From Verrucomicrobiia bacterium (lineage in GTDB: Bacteria; Verrucomicrobiota; Verrucomicrobiia; Verrucomicrobiales; Akkermansiaceae), in NCBI GenBank assembly GCA_947462875.1, contig CANHQJ010000029.1:1-45807 (forward strand): DNA of 45,807 nucleotides. The letters run 5' to 3'. Positions 23,093-24,971 of the stretch are shown here, in pieces. The position numbers were made by a program, and so were the translations under genes. Each line of letters opens with the position of its first letter. The stretch's first letter is position 1. Below the pieces are notes generated by a model. That model saw nothing but the letters and a program-made list of their open reading frames with translations, was not told where the DNA came from and searched no databases.

Positions 23093-23165
23093 AACAGTGG
23101 AACTCCGCCCGCCGGATAATCCCGCTTGGCAAAATATGCGCAGGTCGCTAGTCTCGCCCCGTTTC

Positions 23166-24971
23166 ATGAATTCCACCACGCCCGTATATAGCAACATTTC
23201 CGGATATCTTTTCGCCAATCTCGACAACTTGAAAGAGTGGCGGGTGAAGCTGATGGAGGAGTGCAAGGCGCACCAACTCAAGGGAACCATCCTTCTGAGC
23301 ACGGAAGGAATCAATTTGTTTTTGGCGGGTCAGCGTGAGGACATCGAGCATCTCATCGCGGTGGTGCGGAGCATCCCGGGGCTGGAGAAATTCCAGGCGA
23401 AGTTCAGCGAGAGCGATCATCAGCCGTTCAATCGCATGCTGGTGCGCATCAAAAAGGAAATCATCTCGTTCGGCGTGCCAGAGGTGGATCCGGCGAAATA
23501 CACGTCGCGCCATTTGCCTGCCGCGACCTTGAAGCAGTGGCTCGATGAAGGCCGCCCGGTGACCTTACTGGATACCCGCAATGACTACGAGGTGAAGCTC
23601 GGCACGTTTCGCAATGCCATTCCCATCGGCGTGGATACCTTCCGCCAGTTTCCCGATGCCGTCGCCAAGCTGCCGGAGGATCTGAAAAAACAACCGATCG
23701 TCACGTTTTGCACGGGTGGCATCCGCTGTGAAAAAGCGGCTCCCTACATGGAGTTGCAGGGTTTTGAAAACATCTATCAACTCGATGGCGGGATCCTGAA
23801 GTACTTCGAGGAGGTGGGCGGCGATCACTACGACGGCGAGTGTTTTGTGTTCGATCACCGCGTCGGCCTCGACCCCAGCCTGCGCGAGACACCCTCGGCG
23901 ATTTGTTTTCATTGCCAGGCCCCGCTGGAGCTGGAGGAACAACAGGATCCGCGCTACGTGGAAGGGGAGTCGTGCCCGTATTGTTTTGTGGGAGAGGAGG
24001 AAAAAATGCAGCAGACTCTGGAAAAGCGCAGGCTGGCGCTGGCACAGGTGGTGCATCCCTTGCCCGGCAGCGTGCCGTATGAAAACATCCGTCCGTTGTT
24101 CATCAAGCAGGATTTCGATGGCTGGACCTTGCTCGATCTGTTGGTGCGCCTGTTCCCTCACATCGAGGAAACGGAGTGGCGGCATCGGCTCGATGAGGGA
24201 CGTTTTACCAATGCGCGAGGCGAGGTGGTGACGGGTTCACAGACCGTGCGCGGCGGCGAACGCTACGAGCAGCGCATGACCCTCGCGGCCGAGCCCGATG
24301 TGAATGCGGACATCCGTTTTCTCTACGAAGACAGCGCCCTCATCGTCATACGCAAGCCCGCTCCGCTGCCCATGCATCCCTGCGGGCGCTTTCATCGCAA
24401 TACCTTGCAGCACATCATCAACCAGGTCATCCACCCGGCACCGCGCCCGGTGCATCGGCTGGATGCGAATACCGCGGGACTTGTCCTCTTCGCGCGCACA
24501 CGGCCGATCTGCGCGAAGATGCAGCGGCAGTTCCAGCAGCATACGATGGAAAAAACCTATCTGGTCCGCGTGCAGGGCCAGCCCGCATGGCAGCATTATG
24601 TTTGTGAGGCACCATTGACCACCGCTCCGGATGTCGCCGGCTCGCGCGATATTGATGAAGAGGAAGGCCAGTCCGCCCGCACGGATTTTGTGGTGCTGCA
24701 CCGTTATGCTGACGGCACGGCGCTGTTGCAGGCATCCCTGCACACAGGCCGCACCAATCAGATCCGCGTTCACCTGTGGCATCTGGGCTTCCCCGTTTGT
24801 GGCGATCCCACCTATTTGCCGGAGAAAAAAGTCGCGGCGACGCAGACCTTGGATTGCAGCGATAAGCCGATGTTGTTGCATGCCTGGCGCTTGTCTTGTG
24901 ATCATCCTCATAGCGGACAGCGGCTAACCTTTGAGGATGAGCGACCAGCGTGGGCGGTGGTGCCATTCTAA
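23166..24971 (+). CDS. Fused tRNA U34 hydroxylase (TrhO rhodanese) and RluA-type pseudouridine synthase
   Basis: The start MNSTTPVYSNISGYLF at 23166 begins exactly at the TrhO N-terminal domain; the frame is open 23 codons further without similarity. Residues 1-280 are TrhO-like: ferredoxin-like N-domain, rhodanese with active C182 in FCTGGIRCEKA, then two Cys pairs (C247/C250 and C270/C273) that look zinc-binding. Residues about 310-365 resemble an S4 RNA-binding domain (GWTLLDLLVRLFPHIEE). Residues 375-601 are an RluA pseudouridine synthase with HRLD430-433 (catalytic D433), HTGRTNQIRVHLWHLGFPVCGDP and a TYLVRVQG strand. One chain would thus carry two RNA-modifying activities. No frameshift is needed; the fusion is read in one frame of 601 codons. 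Confidence 0.85.
   Translation: MNSTTPVYSNISGYLFANLDNLKEWRVKLMEECKAHQLKGTILLSTEGINLFLAGQREDIEHLIAVVRSIPGLEKFQAKFSESDHQPFNRMLVRIKKEIISFGVPEVDPAKYTSRHLPAATLKQWLDEGRPVTLLDTRNDYEVKLGTFRNAIPIGVDTFRQFPDAVAKLPEDLKKQPIVTFCTGGIRCEKAAPYMELQGFENIYQLDGGILKYFEEVGGDHYDGECFVFDHRVGLDPSLRETPSAICFHCQAPLELEEQQDPRYVEGESCPYCFVGEEEKMQQTLEKRRLALAQVVHPLPGSVPYENIRPLFIKQDFDGWTLLDLLVRLFPHIEETEWRHRLDEGRFTNARGEVVTGSQTVRGGERYEQRMTLAAEPDVNADIRFLYEDSALIVIRKPAPLPMHPCGRFHRNTLQHIINQVIHPAPRPVHRLDANTAGLVLFARTRPICAKMQRQFQQHTMEKTYLVRVQGQPAWQHYVCEAPLTTAPDVAGSRDIDEEEGQSARTDFVVLHRYADGTALLQASLHTGRTNQIRVHLWHLGFPVCGDPTYLPEKKVAATQTLDCSDKPMLLHAWRLSCDHPHSGQRLTFEDERPAWAVVPF

Follow-up and report, generated by a model that had tools for sequence, protein, structure and literature searches.

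The window analysed here is a stretch of 45,807 nucleotides from a Verrucomicrobiia bacterium (assembly GCA_947462875.1, contig CANHQJ010000029.1), and the gene under study occupies positions 23166–24971 of its + strand. It encodes 601 amino acids plus a stop codon and joins, in one chain, a TrhO (tRNA hydroxylase) half and a pseudouridine synthase half of the RluA type. The frame starts with an ATG at 23166, terminates with a TAA stop ending at 24971 and contains no internal stop; the coordinates, the strand and the single uninterrupted 601-codon frame given in the original prediction were thus borne out. An alternative in-frame GTG at 23097 would yield a product of 624 amino acids, but the ATG is the better start, because full-length fused relatives match the ATG-started protein from residue 1–9 onwards. 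That TrhO is really fused here to an RluA-type synthase is well supported.

All the features described below lie on the + strand. The TrhO half begins with a UPF0176_N acylphosphatase-like domain (residues 8–99, 23187–23462; Pfam PF17773, E 5.2e-24), followed by a rhodanese domain (residues 119–214, 23520–23807; PF00581) that contains the active-site loop CTGGIRC (residues 182–188, 23709–23729), aligned with C200–C206 of E. coli TrhO. In this alignment, C200, T201, G202, G203, R205, and C206 of the E. coli protein (strain MG1655) are identical in the fused protein. The excerpts consulted of Sakai et al. 2019 (PMC6599085) describe the binding of certain tRNAs and the hydroxylation of U34 by TrhO; C200, T201, G203, and R205 proved essential there, and mutants K112A and R114A were defective. 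The counterparts of the four essential residues are C182, T183, G185, and R187, and R94 and K96 are conservative replacements of K112 and R114. Two Cys pairs, CFHC (residues 247–250) and CPYC (residues 270–273), are located in the C-terminal part of the TrhO half (23904–23984) and probably constitute a metal site; they are ordinary for TrhO, since they align with CHQC (267) and CPVC (292) of the E. coli protein. It is quite likely that the TrhO half acts on U34.

A conserved linker, PLPGSVPYENIRP (residues 298–310, 24057–24095), follows, and a similar motif was also found near the start of unfused relatives of the synthase half. Next come an S4-like region (about residues 318–374, 24117–24287), where the TIGR00005 match begins at residue 318, and the pseudouridine synthase catalytic domain (residues 392–537, 24339–24776; Pfam PF00849, PseudoU_synth_2, E 2.2e-29), which contains the subfamily motif HPCGRFHRNTLQ (residues 404–415, 24375–24410) and the catalytic HRLD (residues 430–433, 24453–24464) with Asp433. 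The positions previously given for C182 in CTGGIRC, for the Cys pairs C247-FH-C250 and C270-PY-C273, and for D433 in HRLD were all confirmed. UPF0176_N, Rhodanese, and PseudoU_synth_2 exceeded their Pfam cut-offs, and Rhodanese_C (PF12368) fell below its own (20.3 vs 26.9 bits). The best NCBIfam model was PRK05320, 'sulfurtransferase' (342.8 bits, cut-off 331), and the TrhO model (246.1 bits, cut-off 170) and TIGR00005, for the RluA subfamily (197.5 bits, cut-off 192.7), were passed as well. No Pfam or NCBIfam model covering both halves was found.

The AlphaFold2 model, computed from 18 rows, had a mean predicted local distance difference test (pLDDT) of 84.4 and a predicted template modelling score (pTM) of 0.54. 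Its residues 4–280 align with the complex of B. subtilis TrhO and tRNA-Ala (9j5o, Z 21.6), and residues 2–251 align with 4f67 (Z 23.1). For the synthase half, the top structural match was the RluA–RNA complex 2i82 (residues 375–595, Z 24.4), a small lead over RluC (Z 23.3) and RluD (Z 22.8); a family that this fold search (VIA-align) does not list is not thereby excluded. Residues 304–601 align with residues 2–311 of RluD (2ist), N-terminal domain included, with Z 22.8 and a high root mean square deviation of 7.9. This structural resemblance to the N-terminal domain of RluD supports the S4-like region that had been proposed, but no Pfam S4 family was reported in the 601-residue protein at E ≤ 1.

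The name 'RluA' given to the synthase half in the original prediction proved too specific. All four equivalog scores were below their cut-offs (RluA, 91.8 vs 286 bits; RluC, 95.1 vs 378; RluD, 85.2 vs 351; TruC, 75.7 vs 328), and the half branches apart from the four E. coli enzymes; assignment to RluA, RluC, RluD, or TruC was thus ruled out by the scores and the tree clades together. The subfamily is marked by the linker PLPGSxPYxNxRP and by a motif of the HPxGRFxRNTL type, and its HPxGRF motif may resemble one of eukaryotic Pus9 and RPUSD2. In a first tree of synthase halves (54 rows, including 23 of the 51 fused rows), the 23 sampled fused rows formed a single clade (support 96/91). The second tree contained 58 rows, with eight added and four dropped (the pair L091 and L092, which had a long branch in common, the near-copy L085, and an Eleftheria protein). 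In this tree, the fused rows, the TrhO-adjacent synthase of locus L043, and two stand-alone proteins formed a clade (98/96) whose sister was a bacterial 'Pus9-like' group (L257–L260 and L121; 99/88); the fused synthase half is thus sister to this group and not within it. E. coli RluA, TruC, RluC, and RluD, together with a TrcP-type domain, were placed on the opposite side, beyond a 97/84 branch, and the stand-alone rows L084, L086, and L087 fell outside the fused and Pus9-like clades, yet on their side.

The Pus9-like group was represented by five stand-alone proteins, from Tsukamurella, Arthrobacter, Neisseria, Acinetobacter, and Xanthomonas. The records behind the Neisseria gonorrhoeae (L258) and Acinetobacter baumannii (L259) proteins are filed as plasmids, but their lengths, 2.2 and 4.1 Mb, are those of chromosomes. 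Excerpts of PMC10531406 report strong homologues of the Mycobacterium tuberculosis 'Pus9' (Rv3300c) in Pseudomonas aeruginosa, Acinetobacter, Neisseria, and Actinomycetia, and call its target unclear, possibly rRNA. The sister group appears to be this 'Pus9' group.

A full-length in-frame fusion was found in all ten genomes searched of the genus, that of the window included. In a search of 57 genomes, and among the matches listed (to near E 3e-19), 26 genomes carried the fusion (in one case split over contig ends), 23 carried TrhO alone, and eight neither. Across 288 genomes of the phylum of the window (E ≤ 1e-32, up to four candidates scored per genome), 18 had the fusion, 51 an unfused TrhO, four a synthase match only, and 215 no match. 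The fusion was also recovered from a second phylum, to which a record named Planctomycetaceae had led (244 genomes, E ≤ 1e-50; 20 fused, 5 with TrhO alone), and from an order of a third group, in which two records named Gammaproteobacteria were found (198 genomes, E ≤ 1e-60; 11 fused, 28 with TrhO alone), with the proviso that metagenome bins may be filed under wrong names. When one genome per species was scanned with a pattern, 12 of the 21 loci retrieved were fused, and plasmid records contained no place covering 80% of the query. The very long frame of one locus, L108, looks like a spurious upstream translation. As many independent assemblies, including the single-contig genomes G027 and G145, contain the full-length join in frame, it is not an artefact. 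The fusion might also have turned out to be an annotated family; it does recur across the phylum, but no model spans both of its halves and no paper describing it was found.

The linkage of the two halves was then considered in the phylum sample, where the synthase subfamily was fused to TrhO in 18 genomes, adjacent to it in one, and located elsewhere in two (G031 and G019). The adjacent case, L043 in genome G174, consists of separate TrhO and synthase genes on one strand and is an unfused counterpart of the fusion; the possible starts of the synthase frame range from 17 bases ahead of the TrhO end to 16 bases beyond it, as in a coupled pair. No unfused subfamily member was listed in the second-phylum and order samples at 1e-50 and 1e-60, but this is not evidence of absence, because proteins as distant as that of G019 would be missed at these cut-offs and, at 1e-60, also that of G031. 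No separate whole TrhO was found beside the fusion in any of the 26 fused genomes of the first search, among the matches listed, against 10.5 expected under independence, nor in any of the 18 fused genomes of the phylum sample, against 3.2 expected; both counts are softer than their face value because of shared ancestry and of the scoring and listing limits of the searches. The fusion seems to replace TrhO in the fused genomes searched. Extra TrhO pieces in two relatives were rejected as separate genes, one being the fusion split over two contig ends and the other a partial copy entering a stretch of N. The gene itself is flanked by a sulfatase gene upstream and by genes for a phosphotransferase system (PTS) EIIA-type protein and Hsp70 downstream, neighbours that are uninformative with respect to tRNA.

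Among 51 fused loci, counted after exclusion of four copies of the same loci, CTGGIR was kept in all 51 and HR[LI]D in 50. Against the nearest relative, L002, the TrhO half has a ratio of nonsynonymous to synonymous substitution rates (dN/dS) of 0.04 and the synthase half one of 0.09. Against eight further relatives the ratio was ≤0.14 wherever dS could be estimated, although dS was mostly well above 1 there, and for the synthase half it was 0.06–0.14 in those seven of the nine comparisons in which dS was estimable. In nine relatives of the genus, dN was higher in the synthase half than in the TrhO half, by a factor of 1.4 to 3.2. Purifying selection acts on both halves, and the synthase half evolves faster but is constrained. 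It is very likely that the synthase half, with its Asp433, is catalytically active. A TrhO-half tree (84 rows, seven duplicates or near-copies omitted, built by a quick method and with several long branches) required four changes of the fused state and is compatible with a single origin. In the second synthase tree, two stand-alone rows were possibly nested among the fused rows, and L051 and L050, the stand-alone synthases of G019 and G031, may be fission products of the fused gene. One fusion followed by later losses is a likely history.

The tRNA genes and the companion enzymes were also analyzed. The tRNA sets comprised 38 genes from 38 matches in the genome of the window, 42 from 42 of the 43 matches in the fused genome G145 (all but the weakest match), and 54 from G313, a genome of the same genus as G145 that has TrhO only, where ARAGORN identified them in the sequence around 51 matches. 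No tRNA-Ala(UGC) was found in these three sets; in the genome of the window, the 38 matches included neither Ala(UGC) nor Ile(GAU), and the rRNA operons are perhaps missing from the assembly. CmoB (TIGR00452) was above its cut-off in none of 18 fused genomes and in two of 44 genomes overall, and Methyltransf_3, which we take to be the family of TrmR, had no match in the genome of the window and was above the cut-off in two of eight fused genomes checked; distant enzymes could score below either cut-off. As neither passes its cut-off in the genome of the window, 5-hydroxyuridine at position 34 (ho5U34) may be the end product there. RluA, which makes pseudouridine at position 32 (Psi32), did not reach its E. 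coli-type cut-off of 286 bits in any of 29 genomes checked, 18 of them fused; this cut-off is possibly too strict for other phyla, the best match being one of 158 bits in the fused genome G319. The genome of the window encodes two further RluA-type proteins, one of which groups on the RluD side of the tree.

From these analyses, the reading that we slightly favour is that of a bifunctional enzyme from which the anticodon arm of one and the same tRNA would receive both ho5U34 and a pseudouridine. To hydroxylate U34 of NYN-decoding tRNAs, the TrhO half would use O2 and the rhodanese loop with C182, and the synthase half, through Asp433, would isomerise another uridine in the anticodon arm of these tRNAs. 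Holding the tRNA during the two reactions would fall to the TrhO half, perhaps together with the S4-like region, just as TrcP has an N-terminal part that does this for its RluA-type domain. A synthase fused to TrhO would meet the tRNAs of TrhO. As C5 of U34 would be occupied once ho5U34 is formed, the pseudouridine is not expected at U34 itself. The original prediction had argued that the fusion suggests a common RNA, and this remains the best inference from the 18 fused, one adjacent, and two separate cases and from the TrcP precedent. What the data show directly is the identity of the domains, the conservation of both active sites, the selection acting on each half, and the linkage of the two genes, while the substrates, the sites, and the coupling are inferred. 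We put the action of the synthase half on the anticodon arm of the tRNA bound by the TrhO half at a little better than an even chance. Psi32 in ho5U34-containing tRNAs is our best guess for its product, because of the precedents of TrcP, RluA, Rib2/Pus8, Pus9, and RPUSD2 and because RluA was above its cut-off in none of the 29 genomes, but U32 as the exact site is put forward only tentatively.

Several observations weigh against this reading. The fused synthase domain lies outside the RluA (Psi32) clade in the second tree. U32 was present in four of the five TrhO-type tRNAs of the genome of the window versus 14 of the 33 others (Fisher p 0.17), and in three of five in fused G145. Extra copies aside, the TrhO-type tRNAs shared by G145 and the TrhO-only G313 have the same loops, and the tRNA genes thus neither support nor exclude U32. 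A stand-alone subfamily member (L051) occurs in G019, with no TrhO match among the matches listed, and in G031, of the same genus, the stand-alone synthase (L050) coexists with a TrhO of a different type encoded elsewhere. Eleven genomes (L032–L042) have a TrhO that is 53–63% identical and no synthase half, either at E ≤ 1e-32 or in the fetched flanks; the synthase half is therefore dispensable to TrhO. In locus L106 (genome G539, second phylum), HPPD replaces HRLD and GRTNQIR is lost while the TrhO loop is intact, and this synthase half is probably dead. Finally, with a pTM of 0.54, neither the distance between the active sites nor their relative placement can be read from the model.

Other explanations were weighed against the same data. 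The synthase half could modify 23S rRNA like RluC or RluD, the fusion doing no more than keeping two translation-related enzymes, each with an RNA substrate of its own, at a fixed dosage. The closeness of RluC and RluD to RluA in structure and in profile scores, the alignment of the S4-like N-terminal region with RluD, and the possible rRNA target mentioned for the M. tuberculosis 'Pus9' in the consulted part of PMC10531406 would agree with such a role. We consider it rather unlikely, however, as two other RluA-type proteins are encoded in the same genome, one of them on the RluD side, and as an rRNA site would not predict a subfamily that is fused or adjacent to TrhO in 19 of the 21 genomes holding it in the phylum sample. 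Alternatively, the synthase half may act on tRNA outside the anticodon arm, or on tRNAs that are not substrates of TrhO, in which case the fusion would merely join two tRNA enzymes. The RluA family does reach other sites, since TruC is annotated as making Psi65 and excerpts of PMC12716993 assign Psi30 and Psi72 to human RPUSD1, and tRNA-Ser(UGA) lacks U32 in the genome of the window, as do Ser(UGA) and Leu(UAG) in fused G145. Against this stands the closest studied architecture, TrcP, which works on one tRNA loop according to the part of PMC9553926 consulted, and direct evidence for another site is nil; this alternative appears quite unlikely.

It is even conceivable, although very unlikely, that the C-terminal half mainly serves the TrhO half as a platform for tRNA binding or as a folding helper, with dispensable catalysis. 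The loss of the catalytic motif in L106 and the faster evolution of this half would fit such a role, but HR[LI]D is kept in the 50 other fused loci and the low dN/dS values of this half indicate constraint. As for an assembly artefact, or a read-through of two separate genes, the single relative with separate genes (L043) is all that could be adduced in its favour, and the recurrence of the fusion in the ten genomes of the genus, in G027 and G145, and in records named Planctomycetaceae and Gammaproteobacteria refutes it almost completely.

The bifunctional reading would have several consequences. The targets of many RluA-type synthases are unknown, and a partner with a known site, U34, narrows one orphan branch to a few tRNAs; if the reading is correct, the fusion would reveal the target of this whole branch of bacterial pseudouridine synthases, and it also offers the Pus9-like sister group a hint to its substrate. 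Furthermore, where neither CmoB nor a TrmR-type methyltransferase is above its cut-off, ho5U34 together with pseudouridine would be the finished decoding modification. That we are dealing with a widespread, undescribed enzyme which couples ho5U34 to a nearby pseudouridine in the same loop, the tRNA being handed from one active site to the other, is a possibility to which we give somewhat less than an even chance. No description of a TrhO–synthase fusion was found in the open-licence PMC literature, subscription papers, preprints, and database-only annotation lying outside this search, and the excerpts consulted of PMC7694415, PMC12588516, and PMC7408541 make no mention of one.

When compared with known systems, the TrhO half shares with TrhO (YceA) the UPF0176_N and rhodanese domains, the Cys pairs, the CTGGIRC loop, the basic strand residues, and the fold of 4f67 and 9j5o. 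However, E. coli TrhO has 350 residues and no pseudouridine synthase, whereas the fused protein has 601 residues and contains one; the E. coli protein stands far from the fused TrhO halves in the TrhO-half tree, and its system differs from that of the fused genomes checked, none of which had CmoB above the cut-off. The synthase half shares PseudoU_synth_2, HRLD, and a TIGR00005 score above the cut-off with RluA, RluC, RluD, and TruC, but 21 of the 23 fused rows printed have GRTNQIR in place of the GRTHQIR of RluA-type synthases, and the HPxGRFxRNTL-type motif of the fused subfamily is absent from these four E. coli enzymes. In the Pus9-like group (M. tuberculosis Rv3300c and homologues), the Tsukamurella member shares an N-terminal stretch aligned with the S4-like region, but the five members in the tree are stand-alone proteins, in contrast to the synthase half fused here to TrhO.

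Fungal Rib2/Pus8 likewise joins an RluA-type synthase to another enzyme, its deaminase and synthase being in one chain. According to excerpts of PMC8256712, that partner is a metabolic deaminase of riboflavin synthesis, whereas the partner here is TrhO. E. coli RluA, yeast Rib2/Pus8, and yeast Pus9 are described in the consulted part of PMC7822408 as making Psi32, and human RPUSD2, a member of the RluA family, makes Psi31/32 and Psi34 according to excerpts of PMC12716993. The closest parallel is the C-to-Psi editor TrcP of Vibrio, in which, as set out in the consulted part of PMC9553926, position 32 of tRNA-Tyr is modified successively by an N-terminal part and by an RluA-type domain at the C terminus, and the fusion of this N-terminal part to RluA conferred RluA activity on tRNA-Tyr. 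The two proteins share a plan in which an RNA-modifying part at the N terminus is followed in the same chain by an RluA-type domain, and in TrcP this plan serves one tRNA loop. The N-terminal part of TrcP, however, is composed of a deaminase and a helical domain (PMC9553926, same excerpts), that of the fused protein is TrhO, and the synthase domain of a 559-residue Vibrio protein taken to be of the TrcP type (L254) groups with RluA (99/94) in a tree of synthase domains only. The fused protein was therefore rejected as a TrcP, and the two probably represent the same idea with separate origins. The parts of the fusion are known and their join, spanned by no Pfam or NCBIfam model and described in no paper that was found, is a new architecture of known families. 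Beside TrcP, it would be a second bacterial example in which an RluA-type domain is linked to a further domain that modifies tRNA.

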